Of a stretch of 64,000 nt of DNA, positions 23,544 through 64,000 are shown piece by piece (position 1 is the first letter of the stretch; each line of letters opens with the position of its first letter). Both the position numbers and the translations under genes were made by a program. The DNA comes from Sphingopyxis alaskensis RB2256. GTDB lineage: Bacteria > Pseudomonadota > Alphaproteobacteria > Sphingomonadales > Sphingomonadaceae. The stretch is from assembly GCF_000013985.1 (NCBI RefSeq), contig NC_008048.1:2728001-2792000 (forward strand), in the 5' to 3' direction. Below the pieces are notes generated by a model. The model saw only the letters and a program-made list of their open reading frames with translations. It was not told the origin of the DNA and made no database searches.

Positions 23544-23544
23544 G

Positions 23545-32347: not shown

Positions 32348-32381
32348 GGGATGAAGCTCCTGCTGATGAAGATATCGAGGA

Positions 32382-35160: not shown

Positions 35161-35163
35161 GGT

Positions 35164-36730: not shown

Positions 36731-36814
36731 AAGAATATGAAATATTCTTCTCTATTAGGAGGGTTAGAGGGGCGTCGATTTTGCGCAGATTTCTGCGGGA
36801 CTCCGGACCATGCC

Positions 36815-36881
36815 GGTTCCCGATAGGACGACTCTCGGGTTCCCGATGGGACGACTCCGGCGGTTACTGATAGGACGACTC
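36815..36881 (+). repeat. three 20-bp iterons
   Basis: Copies at 36815-36834, 36838-36857 and 36862-36881, with periods of 23 and 24 bases. All begin GGTT and end GACGACTC; the core is GATAGGACGACTC (second copy GATGGGACGACTC). Likely RepA binding sites. Confidence 0.8.
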
Positions 36882-36890
36882 GCACGGGTC

Positions 36891-36899
36891 TTATCCACA
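36891..36899 (+). promoter_or_regulatory. consensus DnaA box overlapping the repA stop
   Basis: TTATCCACA is a perfect DnaA box. Its first three bases are the complement of the repA stop codon. It lies 10 bases beyond the last iteron. Confidence 0.75.
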
Positions 36900-42461: not shown

Positions 42462-44600
42462 TCATGCCTTTTTCAATAGATGGGCCTCAATAGCTCGCAC
42501 TATGCTCGAGAATCCCTTCCCTTGCGAATAGAGCAATGTTCGACCGCCGCGATGCTCACGGATGAAATCCGTAGCTGCGTGCTTTGCCGATAACCAGGTC
42601 ATCACGAAGAGATCGGAATTCTCCGCCAGTGCGCGCAGCCGAGGGCTACCGCCGTGATCGGCATTTGTATCGACCGTGACGGACGGCGAGATCTCCTCCA
42701 GAACAGCCTTGGCTTGCCGGCTTGAGGATTCGGTCAGCGAATAGATGGCAATGCGCAAGCCAGCCAGGCGGCTAGCCAAGCCATCATCCGCGGGCTCGAC
42801 ATCGGTTGCCGGTGTTACCGGCGGCGACCAGCCGAGTTCGCTCGACAACAATCTGACCGCGATCCGCTGAATGCGGGTAAGTCGGCCATAGATTGGAACG
42901 ATGCGGGCAAGAATGCGATGGAGGAACGTCTCGCGGGCACTCGCATCGGGTGTGGCGGCGTTCATGAAACTCTCAACAAGCTCCAGAACCCAATAGATCA
43001 TATCGACGCCAAAGCCGTCACCGGCGATCTCATCGATATCGGCGATCAGGTCGCGATAGGCCTTTTGGTCAAGGCCCGAGGCCAGAAGCCCTTCAACCAA
43101 CACTTGGCTCGACTCGTAGATAGTTGCTCCGCGCGCACTCCCGAGCGCAAAGAGGGTCAATAACCCACCATAGATCGGCGACAGAGCAGCCCTTGGGAAT
43201 TCGTCGTCTCTCTGCAGCCAGGCGACCAGATAGGGCAAGGCCTGGCTAGTGCGATCGGCGGCAAGCTTGTTGCCTTGGGCCTTTTCGAGCGCTGCGACGA
43301 AGGCACCTACCGCGACCGGATCGCACGCCGATGCACCGATCTCCCACTCATCCTTCCCCAGCCTTGCGATATCAAGTGCATTGGCGAAGGCCGGATCTGC
43401 AGCGCGATCGAGCCAGGCGATCCAGGATTTCGGCGGCGCAATATTCGCCAGTTCATCAGTCGCCTGCACGATCGGCCGGAACGGCATGGTCTCATGCAGC
43501 AAGGCCAGTTCATCGGGACTGAGCCGCGCCATCGCTGCCATTGCGTCAGCAAGGAGGTCGATGCTGTCGACCGCATCGGCCTGTACCAGCGCTTCACGCG
43601 CGGCATCGATCGGGGGCGCAACCCCGATCTCTTGAGGCGCGAGCGGCGCCTGCGTCGGCAACAGTTCTGTGATCCAGCCCAGGTCCTGCGCCGGGTCGGC
43701 AAGGATGGCGAGCAGGTCCTGGCGACCGGGATCTGAGAGTGCTTCCAGACCGAGGAGCCGCCATCCACCCACCCGCAACCCTGGCGGTGCAGCGGTGATA
43801 ATCATCGACTGCACGAAGGACTGGGCCGAACCCTCGAACGCAGCGCGCGTGTCGGCCACATTCTCGGCGTCGAACGGTCCAGCAATATGGGTTCGATACA
43901 ACGCTTCCAAGAGAACCGCGGTGACGGCGGGGGTTCTCCGCGCGACGCACAAGCTTGCAAATTCGGGAAGCGCGACGATGGACGCCCAATCCCCAAAGGC
44001 GGCAAGCAGTTGGACCTCGAGAAATTTGACGTTGAGCGCGTCGAGGCGGAGTTCGCTGCGGAGGCGGTCGAGAATGCCGGTGGCCGCATCGCGGCGCCCG
44101 ACGTTGAGATAATCCTGGAACTGCGCCAGCAGCCAAGAGGTCGGGACTGGGGCCGAGCGCTGCAATTCGGGCGCGCGCGAAAGCGTGTCGCGCGCGCGCA
44201 GGACAGCGCGCAAGGCCGCAACGCGCGCGCGATCGTCGGCCGGCAAGCGCATGATCGCGGTGACAGCGGGCGCGGCACGTTGGAGGCGGGCACCGATCGG
44301 ATCGATAGCGGCGAACGGCTCTGGCACGCCGTCGAACCCGGTAAGCGTCGGTCCGGCGAACGCCAGCAGGACGGGCTTGAGCCGCCGCCAGTCGGACATG
44401 GTCGGCGCCGCAACATCGATCTGCATCGATCCGGCACGGTCGATGACAGGAACGAGCGCACCGGGAAATGTCTCGGAGATCACCGATTGGGTCACATCCG
44501 CGCACAATGCGGCGATTTCATTGCTCGCGCTCGCGCATGGCTGGAGGGCGACGAGATCTGCCAGTACGGCCTGCGCCGCATCGAGGTTCGGGCCGATCAT
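42462..44600 (-). CDS. dpdD: DpdD, 7-deazaguanine DNA restriction component (probable)
   Basis: 712 aa. No enzymatic motif is visible. Recognisable stretches are LLAFAGPTLTGFDGVPEPF near residue 80 and a C-terminal Rossmann-like module (LRIAIYSLTESSSRQAKAVLEEISPSVTVDTNADHGGSPRLRALAENSDLFVMTWLSAKHAATDFIREH). The latter resembles a nucleotide/DrmB-like sensing fold only loosely. Called DpdD from size, these stretches and its position as the last gene of a complete dpd series. Overlaps dpdK by four bases. In Salmonella the D-K genes are needed to restrict unmodified DNA. Confidence 0.65.
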   Translation of the reverse strand: MIGPNLDAAQAVLADLVALQPCASASNEIAALCADVTQSVISETFPGALVPVIDRAGSMQIDVAAPTMSDWRRLKPVLLAFAGPTLTGFDGVPEPFAAIDPIGARLQRAAPAVTAIMRLPADDRARVAALRAVLRARDTLSRAPELQRSAPVPTSWLLAQFQDYLNVGRRDAATGILDRLRSELRLDALNVKFLEVQLLAAFGDWASIVALPEFASLCVARRTPAVTAVLLEALYRTHIAGPFDAENVADTRAAFEGSAQSFVQSMIITAAPPGLRVGGWRLLGLEALSDPGRQDLLAILADPAQDLGWITELLPTQAPLAPQEIGVAPPIDAAREALVQADAVDSIDLLADAMAAMARLSPDELALLHETMPFRPIVQATDELANIAPPKSWIAWLDRAADPAFANALDIARLGKDEWEIGASACDPVAVGAFVAALEKAQGNKLAADRTSQALPYLVAWLQRDDEFPRAALSPIYGGLLTLFALGSARGATIYESSQVLVEGLLASGLDQKAYRDLIADIDEIAGDGFGVDMIYWVLELVESFMNAATPDASARETFLHRILARIVPIYGRLTRIQRIAVRLLSSELGWSPPVTPATDVEPADDGLASRLAGLRIAIYSLTESSSRQAKAVLEEISPSVTVDTNADHGGSPRLRALAENSDLFVMTWLSAKHAATDFIREHRGGRTLLYSQGKGFSSIVRAIEAHLLKKA

Positions 44601-45124
44601 GTCATCTGGCTTTCCCAGCGCGATTCAAGCTCGATCGATTGCTCGGCGACCGCCGCCGGGTCGGTACGCAGTACGAGATGTTCGCCGTTGATCGAAATGC
44701 CGTTGAGCGTGAGATTCATCGAACCGCTCAAGAAGTAGTCGGCACCGAGCAGGCCCTTGGCGTGGAAACTCTTCTCCACGGTCCATTTGATCTGATCGCC
44801 GTAGCGCGCCTTGAGTGTCTGAAGGCGAGCGATGAAATAGTCATTGTGGCCGTCCGCGCGGATCACCAGCCGAAGTTCGACGCCACGGGCGAGTAAGGCG
44901 CGGAGCACTTGCGACAAGCGGATCGGCGCCGCCGGCCAATCCGGCTCGAGCGCTGCGAACTCGCGCGCGGAATTGTCGATGATCTCGACATCGCTGATCC
45001 AAGCGAAGAAAAGCCACAGCTTCGGGCTGGGATGGATGAGTTCGGCGACGAACAGGCTTTGAAACAGGTCGCGGACTGCCCGCGACTGTGCCGGGCCATG
45101 GAGATCGCGTGACGGATAGAGCAT
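44597..45124 (-). CDS. dpdK: DpdK, phospholipase D-like nuclease
   Basis: 175 aa single-HKD protein. The active site reads HAKGLLGADYFLSGSMN (H121, K123, D129, then the G-S-x-N motif); the spacing K-x5-D is one residue longer than the classic HxKx4D. One motif per chain means it should act as a dimer. Likely nuclease effector that cuts unmodified DNA. Overlaps dpdJ (TGATG) and dpdD (ATGA). Confidence 0.8.
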   Translation of the reverse strand: MLYPSRDLHGPAQSRAVRDLFQSLFVAELIHPSPKLWLFFAWISDVEIIDNSAREFAALEPDWPAAPIRLSQVLRALLARGVELRLVIRADGHNDYFIARLQTLKARYGDQIKWTVEKSFHAKGLLGADYFLSGSMNLTLNGISINGEHLVLRTDPAAVAEQSIELESRWESQMT

Positions 45125-48100
45125 CAGACCTGCTCCCTCAGGGTCAGCGTCGCGAAAATTCTGCCATCGGCGCGTTCGACCCGCTCGGTGGCGGGGAAGA
45201 ACTGAAGCACACCGACGCTGACAGGGGTCGCCGAGAGGCGAACGAGGGCGGCGCGGAACAGCCGGGCCTCGCCCGCATCGGCAACGAGCCGTGCCGTACC
45301 CTGGGCTTCAAACGCGGTTGCTAGCAGAGTCTCCCAATCGGGATCGCTGAAGTCGATCGTCGCGATCGCCCGGCTGAGCAGCAGATTGCGGACGACAGCG
45401 GGGTCCGTCGAACGCATCTGGCGGAACGGATGATAGGACTGCAGGACACGCTGGCGCACTTCATTCGCGCGCGGCCAGAGCAAGCTCGTGATTGCCGACA
45501 GGACCGTTACATGCGCGATGGCCGCCGCTGGCAGTGTCGCCGCGAGGAACGCTCGAACGGCGCTCGAAAGAGTGGCGTCGCGGCTCGCGATATAGGCATA
45601 TTCGCGCAAGCCGATGGCAATGCCGAACCGGTCCTGCGTCGCATCCCAATGCGTTTGCAGGTCGAGCAACAACCGATCGAGTTGGGGACCCGAGCCGGCG
45701 CGCAGCAGGCGGTTGTTGAGCGAAACCGACAGCGCATGGCTCAGATCGATTCCACCGCGCTGCGCGAGCGTGTGTGAGAGCGTCCGCCACAGGATCGCGC
45801 GCTCACCGTGCGAGTTCGTCGCACGCAGTCGCGTAACCTGTTCGCTGACCTCGACATCGTCGATGGCGAGGGTCAGGATCTCACGCAAGCTGCCATCGAC
45901 CAACTCCAAGTCGCTGGGCGCAAGCGCCGCGTTGAGCGCCGAGAAGAACAGACGCGGTTCGGAGGCAAAACGGTCGGCGAAGGCTTCGAGGACACCAGCG
46001 CCGCCAAGTGTCGTCTCGCTGATCCAGACGCTTGCGACATCGGACGTCGCGTCATCGCGGATATCGACGAGGAGGGTGTCAACGGTGGCCTGTCGCGGTG
46101 CCGCGGCGATGCACGCCTGGAGCATCGCCTCGCCGAGCGTTTCGAGGATCAGGCGACGAAGCCAGGCGCTGAACATCGCGGGATCGACCGCGATCAGTTG
46201 CGCGGCAAGCGCGCGCAACCGATCCCGGACGACCGGACGGCCGAGTTGCTGGAGCAGCGCCTGCTGCAAACGCCCTCCACCGGCTGCCGCACCGGCGCCA
46301 GCAACTTCGCCAGCAGGATACCCGCCATTACCATCAGCACCATCGTCGGCATCGCCATCTTGCGTATCGTCGCTGTCGGGCGGCGTCGGCGGCATCGCGC
46401 CGAACACAGCGTCCATGACAGCACCGAACACGCTTTCGATCCGGTCGTCGTTAAGAAGGTCGGCGATCGTCTCCGCCAGTGGCCGATTGTTGGTCGCAGC
46501 ATCGGCAAGCAATGCCGACAACAGGAACTGGACCAACCATTCGCGCTGAAACTGGTTTAGGTCGTCGGGCAGTTCCGGGTCCAGCCGGATCAGGTCGCGA
46601 ACATAGGCGAGTTTGCTTGCGGCGAGGACATCGGGCGGCAAGCGATCACCGTTCAGCATGTCGGCATGCGGCAAGGCGAGATCGAGCCGGAATCCGTCGA
46701 CCTCAAGTTCAAAGCCGACCGCGGCGGGTCGATTGTCATTGCTGGTGAAGGTCAGCGTGACGGGAAAATCGTCCTGTAACGTTCGGACATTCGCCCGCGC
46801 CGTCCCGGCGAAGCGCCGAACACTGACGCTCGAGCGGAACCGGTGCAGATGGAAGTCGATGGCGCGGACATGGTGGCGCCATTCCGACCGCGTCGGGACC
46901 GGCACGCCGAGGGCATCGCCATTGGCGACAATATCAGATTGCCAGACGAGTTGGGCGTTGCTGCTCGGCAGCGCCTCGGTGCGGGCGGCACGTTCGAGGC
47001 GCACGGTCCATGGTCGGAAGACCAGGAGCGGCGCTCCGCCGACATGATCATTGAGGCTGCCGGTAAAGCTGCCTACGAACTCATGTTCGGGCGCGTAGTC
47101 GCTGATCCGGCGTTCCTGCTCGGGAAACGCTGGATCGACCGGAATCCAGTGCGACAGTGCGCCGCGCTCATGTGCGAAGCGGCGGGTCACGCGTCCCGGT
47201 GCGAATTGATTCAGCGCCTGGAGGATCGGCATCTGTTCGACTCGTTCCTCGTGATTGACCGTCGCGGGCGGGATGATGACCCGCACTTCCGGCAAGCTCA
47301 GGTCGCTGAACAGGTTGCGCGGGACGAAATCGGGCAGCGGATGGTGATCGACCTGCAGATCAAGCGTCGCGCCGGCATTTGGGATCGCGAGTTGCCAGCC
47401 GCGGAACAGCCGCCGGACCAACGTCGGCACCGCCTCGAGCAGAAGCGAGCGCGGCGCTTCCCAGAGCAATGTTTCGGCCGCCGGTCGGTCGATCCCGAGC
47501 GCTCCCATCAGATAGCTGCGCAGATCGTCGATGGTGGCGGCGTCGCCTTGCACCAACTGGGTCAGCTTAGCGCGGGTGCGATCGAGAACGGCACGCTCGG
47601 CGGGGCTCGCCTGCGGCAACGGGCGGCTTAGGAGGTTCCACTGCCAGGCCTTCTCATAGCCCACGGTGGTCGCTGCCAGCCAATCGAACAACGCGAAGAC
47701 AGCCTGAATCTTCATCACATACGGATTGCGGATCGGGAGATATTGCGGCTCGAGCGAGGGGTCGAACAGATGCTCGAACGCCTGGTAGAAAGCGCGGTCG
47801 CGGCCATAGTCCGACAGGACAGTGAGCGTGATCGGGCGCATCGCGCGATCGCGGCCGGCGCGTCCCTTGCGCTGCAGGAACGACGCCATGCTGCGCGGCG
47901 CCTTGTGCTGGATGACCGCGCCGACGAGCGGGTCGTTGAACCCGACCTCAAGCGCAGCAGTCGCAACCACGATATTGGCCGATTGATTGACTCCGGCGTC
48001 CTGTGAGGTGGTCCGCCCGACGACCAGGCGGCGATCGAGCGGATGGCCGATGTCCTCGCAGATCCGCCAGCGCTGGCCCTCGACATCGCGAACCGCGGCA

Positions 48101-49710
48101 TCGGGACCGGCCCGGCGGATGTTCGCAAGGGGCATCCGCGCCGCATCGGGTCGACCGAAAATCGTGAATGCCTCGGCGTCGCGCAGATCGTCGTAGAGGC
48201 GATTGGTGACGTCGAGGTCATCGGTGAAAAGAAAGGCGCGCCGGCCAAAGGTGCCTGACACGTTGGTTGCGCCGGGCGGATCGAGCAGCCGGGGCAGCAG
48301 CATCGAGGTCTGGATCGTCGTCGAGAGCAGCGACGCGCGCGACGCCGGGTCGCCACGTAGCAGGATTTGATATTCGGCGCCCTGTTCCTCGAACTCTTCG
48401 AGCGTCGGCGTGATCTCGACCACGTCATCCAAGGCCGCGCCGGTCAGATCAGAAAAGAAGCGCGCCGCATCGCCTAGCGTGGCGGAGAGACCGACCCAGG
48501 AGATCGGTGCCGCCAGCAAATGCCGCCATCGCCGGAGCGTCAGCGCGGCCTGCGCGCCGGCTCCACCCTCATAGGTGTGCACTTCGTCGAGCAGGGCCAC
48601 CAATGGCTTGCGCCCGAGCGGGAGACCGACGCCGAACAGACCGCGCATCCAGTGATCGGACAGGCGCTGGTTCAGAATCTCGGTCGTGGTGAACAGGATG
48701 TCGGGCGGAATGCGCTGTAACCGGGTCCGGGTCAGCACGATCTGGTCGTCGCCGATCATTTGGCCGCAGGCGGGTTGAACACAGGCCAGCCGCTCGGTGG
48801 TCGCGGCGATATCAACGCCGCGCCAGACGAGCTCGTCGTCGCAGCGCGGACAGCGCATCCAGGGGCAGACAAAGTCCTCGCCGCGCCGAACCCAACTCTT
48901 ATCGATCAGTTCCTGCCGGGTCGCACGGGTCGGTGTCTTGCCGAACAAGGCACCGATGATCAGCGGCCGGCGCCCGTGCGCGGCAAGCGTCTGATCAATC
49001 GTCCGCGCCATGCGAAACGCTTCGGCAAACTGGTCCTTGAGCAGCTCAATTCGCGGGTAGATCGCGATCGCTTTGACCCAATGATCGGCATCGATCGCTT
49101 CACCAATGCGGATCATTCCGGGCAGGTAGAAGGCGATGGTCTTGCCACTGCCGGTGCCAGCGGTGACGATTGTGCCGCCATCGTCCGTCGCGGACGACAG
49201 ACGCAGCGCCGCGCGCTCCTGAAAGCCGGCAAGCTTCATTCCGTCGCGCGAGGTCAGCGTCCGCCAGAGGTCCTCACGCAGTTGTGACCCGCCCAGCACT
49301 GATGCATGCTCGGTGAGGATATCGGCGGGCAAACGCCGTCGCTCGGGAAAGAGCCGCGGCCGGCAGTCCACCCGAAAGTCGGCGACGAGGGACGACGCAC
49401 CCTGCCACGGCTTGTTGGGGAAGAGCTGTCGGTTGGCAGCCAGCAGCCGCATCATCTCGGCAAAGCGCGACCGGATACGGACGTCGCCGCCGACGCTCGC
49501 CATCTCGAAGATTAGCTTGGCATCGATCAGTTCCTCGACGAGATCCTGCCCGTCAGTGCCACTTACTCCTGCCGCCGCGCACACCTGATCGCCGAGATCG
49601 AAGGCTTCATCCTCGCTCAGAGCGCCATCGGTGAACCCCCATTCGAGGGAGCGCATCTCAATGGCTTCGATGCGGTCGAGCACCGCGAGGGCATGGTTAG
49701 ACACGGGCAT
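45124..49710 (-). CDS. dpdJ: DpdJ, large DEAD/DEAH-box helicase
   Basis: 1528 aa superfamily 2 helicase. Motif I is TAGTGSGKTIAFYLPG (about residue 186), motif II LLDEVHTYEGGAG (about 375), motif VI QRKGRAGRDR (about 613). A four-cysteine zinc module, CPWMRCPRCDDEL...CVQPACGQM, is inserted between motifs I and II. The last 700 residues are unique. The layout recalls DISARM DrmA. The ATG at 49710 follows AGGTAGG at normal spacing, 8 bases after the dpdI stop, and is preferred to a start 20 codons upstream inside dpdI. Confidence 0.85.
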   Translation of the reverse strand: MPVSNHALAVLDRIEAIEMRSLEWGFTDGALSEDEAFDLGDQVCAAAGVSGTDGQDLVEELIDAKLIFEMASVGGDVRIRSRFAEMMRLLAANRQLFPNKPWQGASSLVADFRVDCRPRLFPERRRLPADILTEHASVLGGSQLREDLWRTLTSRDGMKLAGFQERAALRLSSATDDGGTIVTAGTGSGKTIAFYLPGMIRIGEAIDADHWVKAIAIYPRIELLKDQFAEAFRMARTIDQTLAAHGRRPLIIGALFGKTPTRATRQELIDKSWVRRGEDFVCPWMRCPRCDDELVWRGVDIAATTERLACVQPACGQMIGDDQIVLTRTRLQRIPPDILFTTTEILNQRLSDHWMRGLFGVGLPLGRKPLVALLDEVHTYEGGAGAQAALTLRRWRHLLAAPISWVGLSATLGDAARFFSDLTGAALDDVVEITPTLEEFEEQGAEYQILLRGDPASRASLLSTTIQTSMLLPRLLDPPGATNVSGTFGRRAFLFTDDLDVTNRLYDDLRDAEAFTIFGRPDAARMPLANIRRAGPDAAVRDVEGQRWRICEDIGHPLDRRLVVGRTTSQDAGVNQSANIVVATAALEVGFNDPLVGAVIQHKAPRSMASFLQRKGRAGRDRAMRPITLTVLSDYGRDRAFYQAFEHLFDPSLEPQYLPIRNPYVMKIQAVFALFDWLAATTVGYEKAWQWNLLSRPLPQASPAERAVLDRTRAKLTQLVQGDAATIDDLRSYLMGALGIDRPAAETLLWEAPRSLLLEAVPTLVRRLFRGWQLAIPNAGATLDLQVDHHPLPDFVPRNLFSDLSLPEVRVIIPPATVNHEERVEQMPILQALNQFAPGRVTRRFAHERGALSHWIPVDPAFPEQERRISDYAPEHEFVGSFTGSLNDHVGGAPLLVFRPWTVRLERAARTEALPSSNAQLVWQSDIVANGDALGVPVPTRSEWRHHVRAIDFHLHRFRSSVSVRRFAGTARANVRTLQDDFPVTLTFTSNDNRPAAVGFELEVDGFRLDLALPHADMLNGDRLPPDVLAASKLAYVRDLIRLDPELPDDLNQFQREWLVQFLLSALLADAATNNRPLAETIADLLNDDRIESVFGAVMDAVFGAMPPTPPDSDDTQDGDADDGADGNGGYPAGEVAGAGAAAGGGRLQQALLQQLGRPVVRDRLRALAAQLIAVDPAMFSAWLRRLILETLGEAMLQACIAAAPRQATVDTLLVDIRDDATSDVASVWISETTLGGAGVLEAFADRFASEPRLFFSALNAALAPSDLELVDGSLREILTLAIDDVEVSEQVTRLRATNSHGERAILWRTLSHTLAQRGGIDLSHALSVSLNNRLLRAGSGPQLDRLLLDLQTHWDATQDRFGIAIGLREYAYIASRDATLSSAVRAFLAATLPAAAIAHVTVLSAITSLLWPRANEVRQRVLQSYHPFRQMRSTDPAVVRNLLLSRAIATIDFSDPDWETLLATAFEAQGTARLVADAGEARLFRAALVRLSATPVSVGVLQFFPATERVERADGRIFATLTLREQV

Positions 49711-49718
49711 GATCGTGC

Positions 49719-54377: not shown

Positions 54378-56869
54378 TGGGCTACTCTTGCATTAAACTC
54401 GTCGAGCGTCAGCGTCCGACCGCCAAATACATCCTTCAATCTGCGTCCATCTGGGGCGGGCTGGTCAATTGGGGCCAGGAAGATCCGAGGATTATCAGGC
54501 CGCGGCGCGAGGTTTTGCGGCTCGAGTGTTTGCCGGTCGCCGACCATGACAAGTTCGGGGCCACGCGGAAGGCGCGATAACGCAAGCGAGGGCAGGTCGC
54601 TGACGAAGAATGCCAACTTTTCCGCAAATTTGAGAACCCGGTCCATGTCAAACGGCTGCGGGCCGAGCGTGATCACCTTGGCGAGACGGGCCTGCGCTAG
54701 GCGCTGCAGCGTGTCACCAAGCCGGCGCGACGCGTTGCGTGCGAGTTCGCCGGGATCGTAGCTGACCAAAAGCCGGAGATCGCGATCGAGAAGATTGGCG
54801 ACCAGCGGATCGAGCGGCTCGGTCCATGGGCCGCGCGGTTCGCCGACTGCTACGCTGTTGAGGCGACAAGCCTCGTCAGACCGGCACCGGCTGCAGCGGC
54901 TGCACGTCCGTCCAACCCGGTTCGCACCGTACAAATCTTCAAGGATCGCGGCCGGACAGCGATCGTTGCGCAGATATTCGCGCATAAGGTCGAGATTGCG
55001 CTTGGCGGCAAGCCAGCCGACCCGGCGCACGGGTTCGACGCGCGACTGCCATAGCGCTAGGTCGAGATGATGATCGTCGATGATCTCGACCTCGAGCCAG
55101 TCGCCCTCCTGTTCGATCCGCGGATAGGGTGTGCCGAGCAGTCGCAGAATGCCGGCACGCGCCATCAGGGCGACCGTGCGCAAGTTCCAGTCGGTATTGG
55201 CATCGCCGAACATGTCGATGTCGCGTTCATCGGTGCCGGGTCGGCCGTCGATCCGCACGGCGAAGCGTCCGTTCCCAAGGCTGGCCTTTCGCGCGAACAT
55301 CGCAGACCAGCGATGGTAGCCGCGATCAATGCTGATGACTTGCTGGGCGTTAATGCGCTCGGCGATCCCCATGTCGTTGTCTGTCGGCACAATCAGCGAA
55401 AGCGCTGCCTTGCCGTCGCGCCCGCCGCGCCCGACCTCTTGGTAGAAGCGATCCAGCGTCTCTGGAACGCAGGCGTGGATCACGCTGCGAGCATGCCCGT
55501 AATCGATGCCAAGCCCGAACGCGGAAGTTCCGACGACGATATCGAGTGCGCCGTCGCGCCACTGTCCGACAATCTCCTCTCGCTCGGCGCGCCCGGTCTT
55601 GCCGTGGAGCTTGCGAACCCGGCGGAACCCCGCGTCGATCAGCTGCGCATACCAGGCGTTGGCGGCCGCAACCTCGGTGACATAAAGCACCGCCGGCCGA
55701 GGCACGTGGTGAAGCGCCTCCAGGACCTGGGCAGTTCGGCTGGCCTCGTTGGTCGATGGCGCAATCCAATAGTCCGGTTCGGGCCGCAATTGCACCGCCG
55801 CCAGGCTTTCAAAATTGCTTTCGGCGCCGAACAGAGAGCGCAAGGTTTCGAGTGAGGAGTCCGTGAGTGTCGCCGACAACATGATGGTGCGTAGCGCTTG
55901 GCCGGGCGGTGCTGCCGACAGCAGTTCGCGCCGCAAGCCGCTCAATTCCTGGAACTCGGTCCGAAAGCCCGTTCCCCATTGGTCGACGAGATGGGCTTCG
56001 TCGATCACCAGCGCGCGCAACAGACCTGCCTCGGCTGCGCGCCGCAACGGGTCGCGCAGACGGCCGCATGCGGCTTCAGGCGACGCGAAGCACAGGCCCT
56101 GGGTGCCGTCGGCGATCCGTTCGGCGATAATATTGTTCTGGGCGTCGTTGCCACCCTGGAAAGCGAGCGGGCGCGACAGGCCGCAGACATCGACCGCTTC
56201 CTGTTCATGATTGACCCCGAGCGCGACGGTAGGGACGATCACTAGGGTTACGCCGCTGTTTTCCGCTTGGTCCGCGCCGACGAAGCCGACCGTCTGGACC
56301 AGCTGGAAGATCATGCTCTTGCCCTCGCCGGTAGGCAGAGCAACGACGAGGCTTCCGCCGGCGGGGGTCGAGAGCGCGGCACGTACGGCAGCGCGCTGTC
56401 CGCGGCTGCGATAGGAGGTTCGACCGACAGCGGTGAGCAATGGATCGCCCTCGCAACCCGCCCTGTTAAACTCACGGCGAGTTGCCTCGGACGCAGCAAG
56501 GGTTTCGACGCCGTCGCCGGGAGCCACGAGCCATGCCGGCTTCCAGGGCTGGAGCGTCACCAGTCGCGCTTCGCCAGCGGAAGTGTTGTGTAGCCCGACC
56601 GCATCCCAACTGGTGAACCCGTCGAAGCGTGGGTGCGAAACCAGGACAGCGGGGGACACCATGGCGCCGCGCCGGACATGCTCATAGGTCATGGCTTGGC
56701 GGAGCAACACGGCCAGATCGAGTGCGCTCGCCTGGCGCGCCGGGTCGACCAGCGCTTTGCGCAAACGCTCGACCGCGGGTGACCGGGCTTGCCAGTCCGC
56801 CTCGCTATCAGTGCGGATGAGCAATTGGCTCAGGGCGACAAAGGCGTCATGGCCATCGAGGTCAACCAT
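54374..56869 (-). CDS. dpdF: DpdF, RecQ-like helicase
   Basis: 831 aa superfamily 2 helicase of RecQ type. Motif I ALPTGEGKSMIFQL (about residue 178), motif II VIDEAHLVDQWGTGFR (about 289), motif VI EVGRGGRDGKAA. A RecQ-like zinc cluster, RTCSRCSRCRSDEAC, is at about residue 655. The ATG at 56869 has GAGG upstream and overlaps the dpdE stop by 8 bases; a GTG at 56893 gives 8 more residues. Confidence 0.85.
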   Translation of the reverse strand: MVDLDGHDAFVALSQLLIRTDSEADWQARSPAVERLRKALVDPARQASALDLAVLLRQAMTYEHVRRGAMVSPAVLVSHPRFDGFTSWDAVGLHNTSAGEARLVTLQPWKPAWLVAPGDGVETLAASEATRREFNRAGCEGDPLLTAVGRTSYRSRGQRAAVRAALSTPAGGSLVVALPTGEGKSMIFQLVQTVGFVGADQAENSGVTLVIVPTVALGVNHEQEAVDVCGLSRPLAFQGGNDAQNNIIAERIADGTQGLCFASPEAACGRLRDPLRRAAEAGLLRALVIDEAHLVDQWGTGFRTEFQELSGLRRELLSAAPPGQALRTIMLSATLTDSSLETLRSLFGAESNFESLAAVQLRPEPDYWIAPSTNEASRTAQVLEALHHVPRPAVLYVTEVAAANAWYAQLIDAGFRRVRKLHGKTGRAEREEIVGQWRDGALDIVVGTSAFGLGIDYGHARSVIHACVPETLDRFYQEVGRGGRDGKAALSLIVPTDNDMGIAERINAQQVISIDRGYHRWSAMFARKASLGNGRFAVRIDGRPGTDERDIDMFGDANTDWNLRTVALMARAGILRLLGTPYPRIEQEGDWLEVEIIDDHHLDLALWQSRVEPVRRVGWLAAKRNLDLMREYLRNDRCPAAILEDLYGANRVGRTCSRCSRCRSDEACRLNSVAVGEPRGPWTEPLDPLVANLLDRDLRLLVSYDPGELARNASRRLGDTLQRLAQARLAKVITLGPQPFDMDRVLKFAEKLAFFVSDLPSLALSRLPRGPELVMVGDRQTLEPQNLAPRPDNPRIFLAPIDQPAPDGRRLKDVFGGRTLTLDEFNARVAQ

Positions 56870-59800
56870 GAGCGGACCTCGTGAGCGCCCCACCCAGGAT
56901 GAAACATCCCATGGCGTCGAGCCGGATGGCGGGTGATGCGATGCTGGGCAGGATTGACTCGATCAGAGCGATATCCTCGCGTGCCATCGAGTCGCCGGCC
57001 GATTGGCGGCGCTGGAGCCGGTTTCGGCGCCGCTGTAGATCGCTTGCCGCCAGTGTCGTCGCCGCGGTGATCGCATCGAGCACGGCGGGCTGCTCAGACA
57101 AGGTTTGCCGCGCGCCGTTCCGCACGCGACGGCACACTGCCGGAAACACAGCGGGGTCAATATAATCGGCGAGGATATGCGGCCGGCTTCCGAGATTGAT
57201 GTCGGCGCTCAGGCCTTTGCCATGCCCGTTATACGGCTTGGACAGGATTGCGAGCAGCGCAGGATCGATGACCATTTCACCATTGATGTCGATGAACAGG
57301 GTCTGCTCGCTTTGCGCAAAATAGCGCTGCGCGCGGCGTAACGTGGCAAGTTCGGCGCGCGACGGCGCGAGCAGGTCGGCGATGTCGAGACTGGGCTCGA
57401 TCGTGAAGCAGAGCTTGAATCCGATCCAGGCGTCGCCAAGCCAGTCCGCGACCGGCCGATAAGTGACGAACGCGGTTCCGCGATCGTCCCAGCGCGTGAA
57501 GCGCGCCAGCACGTCAATGTGCGGCGTACCCGGGCGCAGCAAGGTCACGGCGGTCCGGCGTGTCGCGATCCGGCGCTTCCAGCTCAGCGGCTGGCTGTCG
57601 TCGAGTTCCAATTGCTGTTGCCACGGCAAGCGCGGGATCAAGGTCTGCTTGGTTATACCGAGCTTGAACGGATCTTCCTCGGGCCAGGCGTAGGGCCGCT
57701 TCTTGAGTTGCAGTGTGTCGATCAGCCATTGATCGACGCCAGCCTCAAGCGCCGCCTCATCAGCTTCGGCGTCATCCAGAGCCTGGATGAATGTTTCGAC
57801 CGGTTCCTCTGCAAGCGCGATCCGGTCGAGGGCATATTGTTCGTCCTGCGACTTTCGTTCGTCGGCGATCTGGCCTTTGATCTCCTCGGCCAGCGCGATT
57901 AGAGCATTGGGCCCGGTCATCAGCAGGGTGTCGAGCGCGCGGGTCTCGAAATCATCCAGCAGGAATTGCACATCGCTGATCGAGCGGTGGAAAATCGACA
58001 GGCCGTCGGCGAGCAACGCCTGCCAGGCTGCAAAGGGGCTTTCGTCTTCGTCCGAAGGCAAGAGTATCCGGTGACGGATGATCCCCTGTCGCCGGCCATA
58101 GCGGTCGAGGCGGCCGATGCGCTGCTCGATCCGGGCAGCGCTCAGCGGCAGGTCGAGATGCACGATCGCATCGGAGAAACTGAGATTGAGACCTTCTTCG
58201 GCCGTCCGGTCGCCGATGAGAACCGCAGCATCGGGCGCTTGCGCGAACGCCGCGACGCCGTCCTCCTTGTCATTGCCCGCGTCACCTCCCGAGACGAGTA
58301 GAAAGCACGGTGTGTCGCCGAGCGCCTCCTCCAGCGCTCGATGGAACGCGGTTGCCAGCGCCTCAGCCGTCGCGAACACAACGATCTTGGGCTGATCGAC
58401 GTCGGCCCGCAGCGTCTTGATTAGCCTCCGCACGCTTTCGACCATCGTTTCGATGCGGTCGGCATCGTCGTAGTCCTGGGCTTGCTCGCGCAGCGCGTCG
58501 AGGATTTCCGCCTCGCCGGCGAAGATCGGCATGACACCAGTCAGCCAGGCGCGAAGAGCGTCAGCGCCTTCGGACACCGCGCCGAGAAGATTGCGGTAGC
58601 GCGCGGCGAGAAGCGGCACCCCCGGATCGCCATCGACTAGCGAGTCGACCGCAGCCGACCGCCAGTCTTCAAGCGTGCCAAGCAGCACCGCCAGGTTGTC
58701 GCTCGGATCGCCTTCGATGCGCACATGGGTCATGGCGCCGCCATCAGGTCCGCGTGGTCGAAACTCCCATCCCTGGGCATCGGCGCGACGCGAGCGGATC
58801 AGACGCTGGTGGATGCGATAGCTGTCGGCGATATGCTCCTTGAGCGCGCCGCATAGGTCGACGAGTCGTTCGGGTGCCTCTCGCGTTGCCTCAATCAACT
58901 GCGGCGCCAACTCTTGGACTACAGGATCGTCGGGAAAGCTACGGACTAGTTCAGCGCCGCGCTGGCGCAGCACAATGCCCGATGCGTCCGGGTCGAGACT
59001 AAGGAGCAAGCGGCCGATCGCCCGGCGCTGTTCGAGCTTCAGGCGAAAACCGTCAAGATCGTCGAGCGGATGGGTCAGCGGATCGAGCAAATTGAGCAGT
59101 GCCAGGAACCGAGCCTCCTCGCCAAGCGGCGGCGTTGCGGACAGCAGCAACAACACCGGCACGTCTCGGGCGAGCTCGCGCAACCGAGCCGCCGATGCTG
59201 AAAGCGGGCCGTCCTCGAGTCCAACCAGATGATGCGCTTCGTCGACCACCAGAACATCGGGTGTTCGCGCGACCCGCTCGATTTCGGCATGCGAGCAACA
59301 TTCGAAGGGCTCGCCGAACTGGTCGAGGCGGAGCTTTTCGGAAAGTTCGCGCCGCCACTGCTCGCACAGCGCCGACGGGGTCGCGATCAGTACCTCGGTG
59401 TCGGGATTGTCGATCAGATGCTGGCGGATGATCAACCCGGCCTCGATTGTCTTGCCCAGCCCGACCTCGTCGGCGAGGAGATAGCGCTGGATCGGATCAC
59501 TGAGCACGCGGCGCACCGCTGCGACTTGGTGCGGCACGAAGTCGATCCCGGCCGAGAGCAGCGACGTCAGACCTTGAGCCGCACTGGTCAGCGATCGCAG
59601 CGGCGTCAGCGCGGCTTGCCGGCGGTCGTGCAGATACTGGCTTTCGGCGGCGCCGGCCGCGAGCATTTCGGCCGGATCCTCGGGCGCATTCCACGGCCGG
59701 ACGAATAGGTCGATCTCGCTGAAGTCTTTTTGCTTCCCGTTGGGGAAGCGGACCTCATAAGTGACAAGGCCATTTTCCTGCTGAAGATAGTCGCTGATGC

Positions 59801-60038
59801 GACCGACCCGCATACGCCCGTCGTCGAGAACATAGGCCCGGGTCTGCGGGCTCAAATAGGCGCGGACGACCGCGCTCACCTCGCACTCGATATCTTCGCT
59901 GCGCTGGATCGAGTGGAAGATCGAGACGACGCAGCGGCCCTCGGCCGCAGATTGCAGCTTCCCGACGCCCTTTTGCCCGGGCAATTCGACGAGCATCCCC
60001 CTGAACAGACCCGTATCCCTCGATGGGCGATTCCCCAC
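56862..60038 (-). CDS. dpdE: DpdE, SNF2/RapA-like helicase
   Basis: 1058 aa DNA translocase. N-terminal beta-rich segment (LVELPGQKGVGKLQ...) followed by SNF2-type motifs: I ADEVGLGKTIEAGLIIRQ (about residue 186), II VVDEAHHLVGLE (about 267), III LLLLSATPP, VI IEQRIGRLDRYGRRQ (about 642). Same family as DISARM DrmD/RapA. Start is a GTG without a clear ribosome site; an ATG at 59996 would trim 14 residues. The 62-base gap to queC is the only real break in the operon. Confidence 0.85.
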   Translation of the reverse strand: MGNRPSRDTGLFRGMLVELPGQKGVGKLQSAAEGRCVVSIFHSIQRSEDIECEVSAVVRAYLSPQTRAYVLDDGRMRVGRISDYLQQENGLVTYEVRFPNGKQKDFSEIDLFVRPWNAPEDPAEMLAAGAAESQYLHDRRQAALTPLRSLTSAAQGLTSLLSAGIDFVPHQVAAVRRVLSDPIQRYLLADEVGLGKTIEAGLIIRQHLIDNPDTEVLIATPSALCEQWRRELSEKLRLDQFGEPFECCSHAEIERVARTPDVLVVDEAHHLVGLEDGPLSASAARLRELARDVPVLLLLSATPPLGEEARFLALLNLLDPLTHPLDDLDGFRLKLEQRRAIGRLLLSLDPDASGIVLRQRGAELVRSFPDDPVVQELAPQLIEATREAPERLVDLCGALKEHIADSYRIHQRLIRSRRADAQGWEFRPRGPDGGAMTHVRIEGDPSDNLAVLLGTLEDWRSAAVDSLVDGDPGVPLLAARYRNLLGAVSEGADALRAWLTGVMPIFAGEAEILDALREQAQDYDDADRIETMVESVRRLIKTLRADVDQPKIVVFATAEALATAFHRALEEALGDTPCFLLVSGGDAGNDKEDGVAAFAQAPDAAVLIGDRTAEEGLNLSFSDAIVHLDLPLSAARIEQRIGRLDRYGRRQGIIRHRILLPSDEDESPFAAWQALLADGLSIFHRSISDVQFLLDDFETRALDTLLMTGPNALIALAEEIKGQIADERKSQDEQYALDRIALAEEPVETFIQALDDAEADEAALEAGVDQWLIDTLQLKKRPYAWPEEDPFKLGITKQTLIPRLPWQQQLELDDSQPLSWKRRIATRRTAVTLLRPGTPHIDVLARFTRWDDRGTAFVTYRPVADWLGDAWIGFKLCFTIEPSLDIADLLAPSRAELATLRRAQRYFAQSEQTLFIDINGEMVIDPALLAILSKPYNGHGKGLSADINLGSRPHILADYIDPAVFPAVCRRVRNGARQTLSEQPAVLDAITAATTLAASDLQRRRNRLQRRQSAGDSMAREDIALIESILPSIASPAIRLDAMGCFILGGALTRSAHG

Positions 60039-60100
60039 AATCGCACCGTTAGGACCATCTTACTGACAGAGGGTTGAGAACCAACCAAAAACGGCAAGCG

Positions 60101-60811
60101 CTACTCGTCCAAACTGCTCCGATGTTCTTGCCAGCCCTTCATGCGCAATTCGCAAGCCGGACAGGTGCCACAGCCGTAGCCCCAGTCCTGCAAGCGATCG
60201 TGGTCGCCACGATAGCAAGTATGAGTGCCGGTGCGGATGAGGTCGACCAGTTTCTCGCCACCCAGTATTTTTGCCAGACCCCAGGTCTGCGCCTTATCGA
60301 GCCACATCAACGGCGTGTGGACGACCGAGCGGCTGCCAATACCGAGGTTGAGCGTGACTTGGAGCGATTTGAGCGTATCGTCGCGGCAATCGGGATAGCC
60401 CGAATAGTCGGTCTCGCACATGCCGCCGACGAGATGCCGCAGTTCGCGGCGTGAGGCGAGCGCAGCGGCGAGCGTAAAGAACAACAGATTGCGACCGGGC
60501 ACGAAGGTGTTGGGCAAGCCATCGGCGCGCAGCGCGATCTCGGCATCGCGGGTGAGCGCGGTCTCGCTGACCTGGCCCAGCACCGAGAGGTCGAGCTTGT
60601 GATCCGGCCCGAGCCGCGCGGCCCATGCCGGATTCAATTCAACAATGCGCGCACGAAAATCGTCGCGGCATTCGAGTTCGACGCGGTGACGCTGGCCATA
60701 GTCGAACCCGACGGTCTCGACGGTCTCGAACCGGTCCAATGCCCAGGCAAGACAAGTGGCGCTGTCCTGCCCACCAGAGAAAAGGACGAGCGCGCCAGCG
60801 TCGCCGGTCAT
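60101..60811 (-). CDS. queC: QueC, 7-cyano-7-deazaguanine (preQ0) synthase
   Basis: 236 aa. Converts 7-carboxy-7-deazaguanine and ammonia to preQ0 with ATP. The PP-loop is [16 protein letters not shown] (S12-S17), and the zinc site is the Cys set in THTCYRG and [21 protein letters not shown] at 60811 overlaps the queD stop (ATGA). In this operon preQ0 should feed DNA modification and not tRNA queuosine. Confidence 0.95.
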
Positions 60812-61182
60812 GCCGCGACTTCCTCGCCCCAATAGGTGCAGGCGTCGCCGCTGCTGTCGCGGTAGACGCTGACCTTGAACAGATTGTCGAGTTCGGGCGA
60901 GAGCCGGTTCCAGATCCAGCGGCTGAGATTTTCCATCGTGGCGGGGCCGAGGTCGTTGATCTCGTCGAGGAAGCGATGATCGAGCGCATCGCGGGCATCT
61001 TCCATCGAGCGCTCGAGCAGGCCGAGATCGACGATCATCCCAGTCGCGGGATCGGGCCGCCCGCGCACGGTCACCTCGGCACGGTAGCTGTGGCCGTGGA
61101 TGCGGCGGCTCGATTCGGTATCGATCGACCGTTCCAGCGTGTGGGCGGCATCGAAACGAAATTGCTTGCTGAGCTCAAACAT
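60808..61182 (-). CDS. queD: QueD-like 6-carboxy-tetrahydropterin synthase
   Basis: 124 aa PTPS-fold enzyme, expected to turn dihydroneopterin triphosphate into 6-carboxy-tetrahydropterin. Zinc His residues are in DAAHTLER and RRIHGHSY. The usual catalytic Cys of CxxxHGH is replaced: the segment reads SRRIHGH, with Ser at that position. [27 protein letters not shown] and VSVYRD are family-typical. Overlaps queE (TGATG). I recall alphaproteobacterial QueD homologues with this form, so it may still be active by another residue. Confidence 0.88.
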
Positions 61183-61814
61183 CAGCGGATCCCGATCATC
61201 TTGTGCGACTGGAGCGAGAGGCGCCAGCGCGGGTTCTGGGTGCAATAGGTGATCGCAGCCTCGAGATTGGCGGCGGCGGTCGGCGAATCCATCGGCTGCA
61301 GGAAAAAGTGCTCGAAGGCGAGATGCTCGAACCGCTCGGGCGCCGCCTTCTCCTGCGGGTAGACAAGCTTGAGTTCATTACCTGCAAGTAGCACCAGTTC
61401 GGCATCGGCCTTGGGGCTGACGCAGATCCAGTCGAGCCCCCGCGGCGCGGGTTGTGTGCCATTGGTCTCTATAGCGATTTCGAAACCGCGCGTGTGCAAC
61501 GCGTCGACCAGGTCCTGGTCGACCTGGAGCAGCGGCTCGCCGCCGGTCAGCACGACGTAGCGATCGGCCCGAGCGCCAGCCCATTCGGACTCGATCGCGT
61601 CGGCTAGGGCTTGGTCGTCGGCGAAGCGCCCGCCGCCGCTCCCGTCCATGCCGACAAAGTCGGTATCGCAGAACGTGCAGACCGATGTTGTGCGGTCGCC
61701 CTCGCGTCCTGACCATAGATTGCATCCGGCGAACCGGCAGAACACCGCCGCACGCCCCATCTGGGCGCCTTCACCCTGCAGCGTCTTGAAGATCTCCTTG
61801 ACCGCGTAGCTCAT
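61182..61814 (-). CDS. queE: QueE, 7-carboxy-7-deazaguanine synthase (radical SAM)
   Basis: 210 aa radical SAM enzyme forming 7-carboxy-7-deazaguanine. The cluster is of the CX14CX2C type: C-NLWSGREGDRTTSV-CTFC (about residues 31-49). GEGAQMGRAAVFCRFAGCNLW is the QueE start, and VVLTGGEPLLQVD and IAIETNGT are conserved. Overlaps dpdB (ATGA). Confidence 0.95.
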   Translation of the reverse strand: MSYAVKEIFKTLQGEGAQMGRAAVFCRFAGCNLWSGREGDRTTSVCTFCDTDFVGMDGSGGGRFADDQALADAIESEWAGARADRYVVLTGGEPLLQVDQDLVDALHTRGFEIAIETNGTQPAPRGLDWICVSPKADAELVLLAGNELKLVYPQEKAAPERFEHLAFEHFFLQPMDSPTAAANLEAAITYCTQNPRWRLSLQSHKMIGIR

Positions 61815-62917
61815 GATCTATCGGCCGTGGGTTCAAGGAGCGGCGCCGGCGCCCGCTTGGCCTTCTTGCGCAGGTCCGCCTTCACGATGCCCACCAGATA
61901 ATGTTTGAGCAGCGCGACATCGCGGTTGACGTTCTGCAAGCCATTCCACCGCCGGACCTCGCCATCCATATGCCACTCGCCAGCGGTCCAGGCGGTCTTG
62001 TCCTTAAGGCATTCCATCCCGGTTCTGAAATCCTCGACCGTCCGCGCCTCCCCGCGCTCGGCGAGCACTTCCATGACGTCGCCCATGGCCTGGATGCCGG
62101 CGCCGTGCAGCAGGCGAGAGGTATTTGGCTTCTGGCCGTGCCACGCCTCGGGCCAGACCTTCTTCACTGCGTCGAAGAAATTTGACATCAGCCGCACACA
62201 GCGTTCCTCGCCCTTCGCACCCCGGATCAGCTCGCGCATCACCCCGTTGCTGAGCGACTCCATGATGATCTTCTGCATCACCGTGTCGGCGATGATGCCC
62301 TCGGGACAGGTATGCTGCTTGATATAGCCCTTGAGCGCGGTGTTCTCGAAGTTGAGCCGCGCCGTCAGATCGGAGGCGACCGACCGCCGGCTGAGCCGCG
62401 GTGGCAGATCGCCGACGGTCGGCAGCAGCTCGTAGATCAGCGACTTGGGCAGCGGCTTGGTATTGTTGATGAGCACGAATTGGCGGCGGAGTTCCGCCTC
62501 GTCGCGGCAGATCAGCGCCGAGACGAAGACCTGGAAGTCGCGGTCGAGATCGGCAAGCGCCGACAAACGCTGCTGGCCGTCCACCACCAATCCGGGAACG
62601 CTGCTGCTCATGTCAATCGCCAACTGCACGGCGCCATTCCCGAGGTCCTCAACGCTGACGCGATCGGTAAAGGCGACGACGATCGGGTTGGGCAACACTG
62701 CGTCGGGCTTCTCGAGATAGTCGCGGATCTCGCGGATATGGGCGGCGACTTGCGGCCGCTGGAACCCGCTGAGCTCGCCCTGGGCGTCTCGGCCGATCCG
62801 GTCGATAGCCGCAAAGCGCAGCACGTCCGCGGCTTTTGCCGCGAAGCTGAGCACTTTGTGCTCACTGCTCTGCTGCGCACAGACGGCGAGGTAGGTCATC
62901 ACTTGGTTCAACGGCAC
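61811..62917 (-). CDS. dpdB: DpdB, DGQHR-domain ATPase partner of DpdA
   Basis: 368 aa. The ParB/DndB-like motif is PGLVVDGQQRLSALADL (about residues 90-106, DGQQR form). FQRPQVAAHIREIRDYL and NPIVVAFTDRV precede it. By the Salmonella system it assists DpdA in base exchange using ATP. GTG at 62917 has a weak GGA upstream; ATG at 62899 is the alternative. Either way it overlaps dpdA by 38-56 bases, unusually long for this operon. Confidence 0.85.
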   Translation of the reverse strand: MPLNQVMTYLAVCAQQSSEHKVLSFAAKAADVLRFAAIDRIGRDAQGELSGFQRPQVAAHIREIRDYLEKPDAVLPNPIVVAFTDRVSVEDLGNGAVQLAIDMSSSVPGLVVDGQQRLSALADLDRDFQVFVSALICRDEAELRRQFVLINNTKPLPKSLIYELLPTVGDLPPRLSRRSVASDLTARLNFENTALKGYIKQHTCPEGIIADTVMQKIIMESLSNGVMRELIRGAKGEERCVRLMSNFFDAVKKVWPEAWHGQKPNTSRLLHGAGIQAMGDVMEVLAERGEARTVEDFRTGMECLKDKTAWTAGEWHMDGEVRRWNGLQNVNRDVALLKHYLVGIVKADLRKKAKRAPAPLLEPTADRS

Positions 62918-64000
62918 GCTTCAAATCCAGTCGTTCGATATGATCTTGGTAGACCGCGAGATTGTGAATCCCGCGGCGCTTGTTGCGATTGCTTCCGCGA
63001 AAGATGATCACATCGATCGCGGCATCCCGGCAGATTTTGCAGGAACATTGCTTCCATGGCCGCTCGGCAAGCGTCGTACGATAGCGCTCGGCCAGGCGCG
63101 CCAGCGACGGGCTCGCGGCGCAGTCCTCGTAAGGCTTTTCCTCGACCAAAGGCGCACTGTAGACGAGCACGTGATGCAGCGTCTCTTCGAGCCCGGCTTC
63201 ATCCCGGTCGAACGCGCGCAATGAGCCCAGCGCCAACGCCTCGAGCCGGACCAATTCCTCGGCCCGGAACATACCCTTCTTGACCGCGCGCTGGAGCTTG
63301 GGGTTTTCGATCGCCTGCGGCACCCGGATCGAGGTGAAGTAGCGCAGCGCCAACCCGTCGCCCGGCAGATAATAGTTCTGCTTCGCGTCCTTGAACGCGC
63401 GAATGAGGGGTGACGTCGTGTCGAAGCTTGAAATGTCGTAGCCGTGGAAGCTGTCGATATCGTCGGCCTTGGCAAAGCCGAGGATGTGGAGGCGTGTCGA
63501 TGCGGGCACCGTGTCGCGGATCGCTTCCAAACATAACTTGATCTCGGGCGACTTGAGCGGAACCATGCCGCCGAGTGCCAGGTAGTCATAGCCCATGGCG
63601 ACCAGCCGACGCGCCGCCTCGGCCATGCTGCCGGGCGACCAGCCCTGGATCACGCCCATCGGGGTGAAGCCCGCGTCCATCACTTTGGCCTCGCGCAGGA
63701 ATCCCTCGGCGTTCTCTAGCGTGATGTCGAAGCGCTGTCGGGCGTCGGTCGACCCGCCAGCCAGCCCCGCGAGGCCGGCGTCGAAATCGAAGATGATATG
63801 GTCGACCGAGGCGCCATGGGTGAAGCCGCATTCGTCGTAGAATTCGGCCATTTCCACCGGCGTGTACGGCGGCTTCTCATCCTGCACATAAGTGAAGGCG
63901 CCGCAATCGCCGAAAATGTCGAGATGTGCGAACTCGGGCTTGTCGAGGCGCAGAAACTTGCGGGCCCCAACCAGGCGGAAGCGGCGCGCCTGGCTGGCCG
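62862..64000 (-). CDS. dpdA: DpdA, DNA-guanine transglycosylase (TGT paralogue), 5' end outside window
   Basis: At least 379 aa; the frame stays open to the window edge, so the start is missing. It exchanges guanine in DNA for preQ0. TGT-like features: FGDCGAF (first catalytic Asp region, 63915-63940), SFDTTSP (nucleophile Asp region, about 63410), and the zinc site CSCKIC with a later His (about 62975-63050). GSLRAFDRDEAGLEETLHHVLVYSA lies between. It is far from true tRNA TGT in sequence and is clustered with DNA-restriction genes, so DNA is the substrate. A GTG at 63887 is internal: LDKPEFAHLDIFGDCGAFTY upstream of it is clearly part of the domain. Confidence 0.93.
   Translation of the reverse strand, partial: ASQARRFRLVGARKFLRLDKPEFAHLDIFGDCGAFTYVQDEKPPYTPVEMAEFYDECGFTHGASVDHIIFDFDAGLAGLAGGSTDARQRFDITLENAEGFLREAKVMDAGFTPMGVIQGWSPGSMAEAARRLVAMGYDYLALGGMVPLKSPEIKLCLEAIRDTVPASTRLHILGFAKADDIDSFHGYDISSFDTTSPLIRAFKDAKQNYYLPGDGLALRYFTSIRVPQAIENPKLQRAVKKGMFRAEELVRLEALALGSLRAFDRDEAGLEETLHHVLVYSAPLVEEKPYEDCAASPSLARLAERYRTTLAERPWKQCSCKICRDAAIDVIIFRGSNRNKRRGIHNLAVYQDHIERLDLKRAVEPSDDLPRRLCAAEQ

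Follow-up and report, generated by a model that had tools for sequence, protein, structure and literature searches.

The window analyzed here comprises 64,000 nucleotides of the Sphingopyxis alaskensis RB2256 genome (bases 2728001-2792000 of contig 2, which has 3,345,170 bases; the genome has 3,373,713 bases in two contigs) and holds most of a 7-deazaguanine DNA modification and restriction (Dpd) operon that continues past its last base. The operon consists of fifteen genes in the order dpdC-dpdB1-dpdA-dpdB2-queE-queD-queC-dpdE-F-G-H-I-J-K-D, and it very probably encodes a complete Dpd restriction-modification system situated on or beside a conjugative element. Judged by its sequence, it adds a complete case to a kind already known, in a host that we take to be a free-living marine bacterium. 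Its first seven genes, dpdC to queC (about 6.1 kb, here called the writer), are an exchangeable cassette, and the restriction module joined to it varies from one sphingomonad to another.

According to the available text of three accounts (PMC6884629, PMC11888242, PMC12839542), FolE, QueD, QueE and QueC make preQ0, DpdA and the ATPase DpdB insert it into DNA, DpdC converts the inserted preQ0 by hydrolysis to dADG, and the system prevents replication of unmodified DNA; the dpdD-K content is described as variable (PMC11888242). In S. alaskensis, QueD, QueE and QueC together with a host FolE would supply preQ0, DpdA with two jointly acting DpdB ATPases would swap guanine in DNA for it, and DpdC would turn the inserted preQ0 into the amide dADG, so that the host DNA presumably carries a deazaguanine base. 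The module of DpdE-K and DpdD would then detect unmarked DNA and block or cut it, the cutting probably being done by DpdK.

The first-pass annotation, made from the letters of the window, had read a near-complete operon of thirteen minus-strand genes, dpdA-dpdB-queE-queD-queC-dpdE-F-G-H-I-J-K-D. All thirteen are intact in that order and match family models, and the operon is in fact complete, since beyond base 64000 dpdA runs to its start and is followed by another dpdB gene and by dpdC. None of the fifteen translated proteins contains an internal stop, 11 of the 13 window genes score over a curated NCBIfam cut-off (the exceptions being DpdI and QueD), and by their E-values chance matches to Dpd and Que families are excluded. 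Profile models support Dpd membership for every component, weakly for DpdI and QueD. The writer ends with queC for the preQ0 synthase (60101..60832, minus strand like all genes in the window named below; TIGR00364, 196 bits, cut-off 150), preceded by queD (60808..61245; TIGR03367, 77 bits, under the cut-off of 89), queE for a Cx14CxxC radical SAM enzyme (61182..61814; TIGR04508, 359 bits, cut-off 240) and dpdB2, downstream of dpdA (61811..62917; NF041060, 384 bits, cut-off 300); the CX14CX2C motif of QueE and the DGQQR motif of this DpdB, both claimed beforehand, can be read directly in the translations. The DNA transglycosylase gene dpdA occupies 62862..64000 and runs on to 64193 (443 amino acids) or to 64325 (the longest open reading frame, ORF; L002:5862-7325), that is, 193 or 325 bases past 64000 depending on the start, and the 443-residue form is probably the true one because the NF041059 match begins at residue 45 of the longest ORF (548 bits for the whole gene and 442 bits for the window piece alone, cut-off 200). 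Beyond the edge, in extended window numbering, lie dpdB1 at 64190-65311 (L002:7190-8311; NF041060, 457 bits, cut-off 300) and dpdC at 65308-66231 (L002:8308-9231; PADLOC PDLC02815, 442 bits); a sequence search at E 0.1 returned no solved structure for DpdB1 or DpdC. That neighboring genes overlap holds, and the reported 1-11 bases depend on the starts chosen: with the longest ORFs the overlaps are 1-64 bases, and only queC and dpdE are separated, by a gap of 62 bases.

The restriction module begins with dpdE, for an SNF2/RapA-like helicase (56862..60038; NF041062, 947 bits, cut-off 500; DEAH at 266), followed by dpdF for a RecQ-like helicase (54374..56893; NF041063, 823 bits, cut-off 550; DEAH at 298), dpdG (53460..54377; NF041064, 164 bits, cut-off 80), dpdH for a P-loop ATPase (50422..53463; NF041065, 549 bits, cut-off 450; Walker A at 82), dpdI, a remote member matched over its full length (49719..50450; NF041066, 37.6 bits, E 2e-9), dpdJ for a YprA-type helicase (45124..49770; NF041067, 1782 bits, cut-off 800; Walker A at 204 and DEVH at 395), dpdK for a PLD-type nuclease (44597..45124; NF041068, 213 bits, cut-off 100) and, as the last gene, dpdD (42462..44600; NF041061, 574 bits, cut-off 300). 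The three helicases, P-loop ATPase and PLD nuclease noticed at first sight are thereby borne out. Both residues of an H121-x-K123 motif are conserved in the 10 DpdK proteins aligned. DpdD matches PADLOC PDLC02834 end to end with 1660 bits over 712 of 712 positions, so the model was probably built from sequences that included this protein or one almost identical to it.

The available description of the Dpd island of Salmonella enterica serovar Montevideo has the same dpdA, B and C writer and the restriction genes dpdD-K, and its DpdA is matched by the one studied here; unlike that island, the S. alaskensis operon has dpdA flanked by two DpdB genes, queE-D-C inside the operon, a remote DpdI, and a single co-directional arrangement beside conjugation genes. 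Several observations count against a complete and working system. DpdI falls under its curated cut-off of 150 bits. For DpdC, whose identity rests on PADLOC models, NCBIfam gave no match at E 0.01, and the score against Pfam DUF6884 is 19 bits, under the cut-off of 30. The operon QueD, besides its score under the cut-off, has Ser before HGH where the solved QueD 2OBA has Cys. A sigma-70-like promoter was not found in 0.9 kb around and upstream of the dpdC start, which is weak evidence either way.

It is unlikely that the writer works while the restriction half is silent or decayed, the cluster serving only to protect element DNA from other restriction systems. Such an arrangement has a parallel in a Sinorhizobium americanum plasmid, which carries dpdC-B-A-B-queE-D-C but, over the 41 kb inspected, none of the dpd restriction genes; against it, all eight restriction genes of S. 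alaskensis are intact and cover nearly the whole length of their models (seven of the eight over NCBIfam cut-offs, DpdI below), and restriction proteins 80-95% identical to them persist in Sphingobium lactosutens. In the part of a review available, restriction activity linked to the dADG-type mark is described as not further explored.

In searches of loci with the fifteen proteins, the writer was conserved and the content after queC varied. The 34 loci were typed by rule: type 1a (n = 6) has restriction proteins >80% identical to those of the window in E, F or J, type 1b (n = 10) has the same kind in diverged form, type 2 (n = 11) has the different module described below, and 7 received no call; the labels of NovoMAG017, NovoMAG533, Kiloniellaceae and SphingMAG936 rest on the first restriction genes only, owing to contig or stretch ends. 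Sphingomonas sp. NFR04, of type 2, and S. spermidinifaciens, of type 1b, align over one 6127-bp stretch at 92.1% identity that starts 3 nucleotides before dpdC and stops 26 nucleotides short of the queC end. Apart from it, these two loci have in common no pieces >80 bp except 87 bp in the DpdF relative of NFR04 and an inverted segment of 1.2 kb that lies outside the modules. Between S. alaskensis and Sphingomonas sp. IC-56 the shared stretch is 6143 bp long (84.4% identity) and has similar ends, and a further 167 bp match in dpdF. Among the 117 unlike-type pairs sharing >4 kb, 10 alignments start within 100 nucleotides of dpdC and 46 end within 150 nucleotides of the queC end, an ending found in 3 of 51 like-type pairs. 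In the more diverged pairs the alignment starts inside dpdC, the fastest-changing writer gene.

Exchange is also visible protein by protein. DpdC, DpdB1, DpdA, DpdB2 and QueE of IC-56 are 80-97% identical to those of S. alaskensis and 58-82% identical to those of S. parapaucimobilis, whereas its QueC, nuclease and fused helicase are 95-97% identical to S. parapaucimobilis; the breakpoint in IC-56 thus lies before queC and not after it, because QueC goes with the S. parapaucimobilis module. The Sphingobium lactosutens writer proteins are 70-95% identical to those of Novosphingobium metagenome-assembled genome (MAG) 533, with only 31-35% identity in DpdE and DpdF, whereas its restriction proteins are, as noted above, close to those of S. 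alaskensis (80-95%). As a side observation, several relatives (L014, L015, L032) carry a VUT/YhhQ-type transporter, a protein weakly matched by the PADLOC PycTM model or a HAD hydrolase between queC and the restriction module.

On the 34-row writer tree, which has long rows, that of E. cloacae above all, the type 2 label requires 10 changes, seven of them forced by well-supported branches (shuffled mean 9.5). Among 21 closer rows it requires five changes, four of them forced, against a shuffled mean of 6.7, with values as low in 49 of 500 shuffles. Uniting the eight type 2 writer rows was rejected (log-likelihood lower by 420; approximately unbiased (AU) test, p = 6e-96), the groups in this test being defined from gene content. 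The type 1a label is clustered, with three changes on the larger tree (as low in 1 of 500 shuffles) and a clustering as low in 7 of 500 on the 21-row tree, which speaks against a free shuffling of modules. On these trees exchange appears frequent, yet close relatives often keep their own module.

The type 2 module contains a nuclease of 750-850 amino acids, a protein of ∼2100 amino acids in which an SF1 helicase of AAA_11/12 type precedes a helicase resembling DpdJ. Relatives of DpdF, DpdG and DpdH, and perhaps one of DpdI, complete the module, the genes often being convergent; one locus (IC-56) adds a DpdE relative. All NCBIfam scores of these proteins are under the cut-offs (DpdF-like 471 bits against 550, DpdG-like 45 against 80, DpdH-like 293 against 450, DpdJ-like 295 against 800), and PADLOC models catch F and H with 601 and 790 bits. 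DpdK and DpdD were not found by blastp at 1e-5 in the 11 type 2 regions, which span 21-32 kb and in some cases cut the module short. The nuclease is predicted to be a RecB/Dna2-like PD-(D/E)XK enzyme. It scores 25-37 bits against TIGR03491 (cut-off 97) and, against Pfam PDDEXK_1 (cut-off 22), 27.3 in one member and 18.3 in another; five residues (D125, K144, C242, C245, C251) do not vary among 33 members, D142 is almost as constant, and C19 is conserved in the 10 members from the loci compared. Such a residue pattern occurs in Cas4/AddB/Dna2 iron-sulphur nucleases. A structural model (mean predicted local distance difference test score, pLDDT, 81; predicted template modeling score, pTM, 0.54), in which confidence is low at residues 235-249 where cysteines sit, best matches MGME1 and Dna2 (four matches at E <= 0.001) and then AddB, with weak global scores.

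Relatives of the type 2 nuclease number at least 483 at E <= 0.001 among 7999 candidates scored, and type 2 is also found on plasmids of Skermanella, Azospirillum, Caulobacter and Methylobacterium, the Caulobacter nuclease lying outside the stretch compared. Because the type 2 genes of the Caulobacter and Methylobacterium plasmids carry annotations such as 'hypothetical protein', 'helicase-related protein' and 'AAA domain-containing protein', a survey that relied on gene names would count too few of these modules. An entry from human faeces labelled 'Bacteriophage sp.' (MT835580.1, L095) also carries a Dpd writer and a type 2 module; it is probably a bacterial contig, as its F, G, H and I relatives are 95-98% identical to those of Sphingomonas sp. 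IC-56.

We consider it reasonably likely, though well short of assured, that Dpd immunity consists of two separately inherited modules, a writer cassette of ∼6 kb that gives DNA a common self-mark and, swapped behind it, restriction modules of at least two unlike classes, one of them without DpdK and DpdD and using a RecB/Dna2-like PD-(D/E)XK nuclease and a fused SF1-YprA helicase; if so, the mark would be shared, and a restriction module of one class should spare DNA that carries the mark of a system of the other class. Module exchange then poses the questions of whether the mark alone is enough for cross-protection and whether very different nucleases read its absence. No account of the exchange between writer and restriction genes, or of the type 2 module, was found in the open-access literature searched. 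The available text of PMC12458937 mentions uncharacterised Dpd-like YprA classes and describes BRIGADE, which likewise joins deazaguanine genes with YprA-like helicases and in some cases has a PD-(D/E)xK nuclease in place of the PLD nuclease; BRIGADE is reported there only from halophilic archaea, whereas the type 2 module occurs in Alphaproteobacteria and, unlike BRIGADE, has dpdF-G-H-like genes, a predicted RecB/Dna2-like nuclease and an SF1-DpdJ fusion. The Dnd/Ssp phosphorothioate systems, whose DndB family in Pfam is matched by DpdB1, likewise have one kind of DNA mark and unlike restriction modules, their mark being sulphur in the backbone, unlike the base exchange of Dpd.

The two DpdB genes that flank dpdA are a regular feature of these loci. 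DpdB was found in 4 of 396 genomes in an even sample of the order, all four with two copies 2.3-2.4 kb apart, and in a class-wide sample only in the window's own genome (1 of 385); with that genome, which is in both samples, removed, the counts are 3/395 and 0/384. Among the loci from genome scans, 22 of 24 have two full-length copies, one lacking the downstream copy (L038) and one having a shortened upstream copy (L037). In a DpdB tree of 72 rows, the 33 sampled upstream copies form one clade with a Shimodaira-Hasegawa-like approximate likelihood ratio test (SH-aLRT) support of 99, and a recent local duplication was therefore rejected; the downstream copies except the Enterobacter one form a group with support of 93 that also takes in the single copy of Variovorax and two distant copies of great length, and the Enterobacter cloacae single copy falls outside both clades, the deep order being unsure because of long branches. 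Both clades keep shared conserved residues, DGQQR included, by which the reading of one DpdB as a dead copy was rejected, though such conservation does not prove activity. The duplication itself is known, additional dpdB copies, at 801, being the most numerous of any dpd gene in the available text of PMC11888242. The fixed pair raises the question of why one copy suffices in the Enterobacter plasmid examined and two are kept in nearly all alphaproteobacterial loci examined. A third, very distant DGQHR/DpdB-like protein is encoded near the Bradyrhizobium and Agrobacterium vitis clusters (L071, L014), apart from the dpdA pair.

The absence of DpdC, which would leave only preQ0 in DNA (dPreQ0), was rejected as dpdC lies just past the window edge, and because of its presence there the expected end product is dADG, via dPreQ0, and not dPreQ0 alone. 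It is very unlikely that dPreQ0 nevertheless accumulates by itself, with a DpdC that is inactive or too diverged and the nitrile form as self-mark: DpdC does change faster than other writer proteins (53-80% identity where DpdB1 has 76-97%, in the pairs compared), but an alignment of DpdC proteins of at least 250 amino acids from 32 loci keeps 34 positions conserved at 95%, and the S. alaskensis protein matches the PADLOC model with the score given above.

The TGT-like zinc and Asp motifs reported for DpdA stand up in an alignment of 34 rows, in which Asp140, Asp302, C427, C429, C432 and H454 are conserved at >=97%; from Tgt, we take the two aspartates to be the catalytic pair and the other four to be zinc ligands. 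DpdA matches 7UI4, named a DNA-guanine transglycosylase and identified in a published text as the S. Montevideo DpdA structure, with 318 bits, and its window piece is under the cut-off of the general Tgt model (tgt_general, 18.8 bits, cut-off 47.6). A canonical Tgt is encoded separately in the genome (488 bits); this and the match to 7UI4 weaken the idea that DpdA acts only on tRNA.

For preQ0 supply, queC and queE of the operon score over their cut-offs and queD under, folE lies elsewhere in the genome, and so does a second, native queC beside a native queE; queC was present in 15 of 15 same-genus genomes checked. The Ser of the operon QueD, a possible sign of a dead enzyme, recurs in 23 of 28 dpd-linked QueDs, the other five having Cys (the alignment has 29 rows, one plasmid having been entered twice), and among eight QueD-family matches in relatives without DpdA over the cut-off, four have Tyr and four Cys at the same position. 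From the Tyr/Cys split and the common Ser, the position is not strict in the order Sphingomonadales. The operon QueD is the sole QueD-family match in its genome (TIGR00039, E <= 0.001). Among 25 same-genus genomes, drawn from a sample of 41 that includes the window's own, DpdA is over the cut-off in two only (G000, the window's own, and G022), and these two alone have a QueD match (0 of 23 without dpd). That pattern would suit a cluster feeding tRNA queuosine synthesis in a QueD-short host, with DpdA acting on tRNA, a highly improbable reading given the canonical Tgt elsewhere, a DpdA of the DNA-acting family and, to our knowledge, no place for DpdB, DpdC or DpdD-K in queuosine synthesis.

The operon is found in nearly the same form in Novosphingobium clariflavum (L016, L061, L062), with the same 15 genes in the same order and proteins 92-100% identical, and DNA homology extends, with breaks, over 32.1-83.3 kb in window numbering, the left limit being the end of the stretch compared. 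The shared region is a mosaic: the writer DNA at 59-66 kb differs at 28 of 7000 bases, whereas 50-55 kb differs at 171 of 5000 (3.4%) and the upstream genes at 67-72.5 kb at 430 of 5500 (7.8%). Divergence rises abruptly at 66.3-66.7 kb, a short way upstream of dpdC, whereas at the opposite end identity falls gradually; in this pair the tract of low divergence extends beyond the writer, because dpdE, dpdF and dpdJ also have nearly identical parts. In the N. clariflavum stretch the 75-base sequence of the tRNA-Gly described below is present as three copies in tandem.

Outside the Dpd system, seven minus-strand genes at 18924..37775 have Pfam matches to conjugation and replication proteins (TrbI, CagX/VirB9, TrbL, a TrbE-type ATPase, a coupling protein, a relaxase and a RepA-like protein), and the genes upstream of dpdC encode a protein with a YAcAr domain, a Toprim protein and a large helicase of the strawberry-notch type. 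An ArdC-like antirestriction gene beside a tRNA-Gly gene at L003:3396-4688 (C2:2808396-2809688) marks a possible element end; the tRNA was rejected as such, a second copy of the tRNA end not being found in C2:2716001-2825000, nor were element ends. Adjoining the conjugation genes, at 11135-18209 of the window, are TonB receptor, S9 peptidase, asparagine-synthase-like and transglutaminase-like genes, a set that we take to resemble a lasso-peptide cluster.

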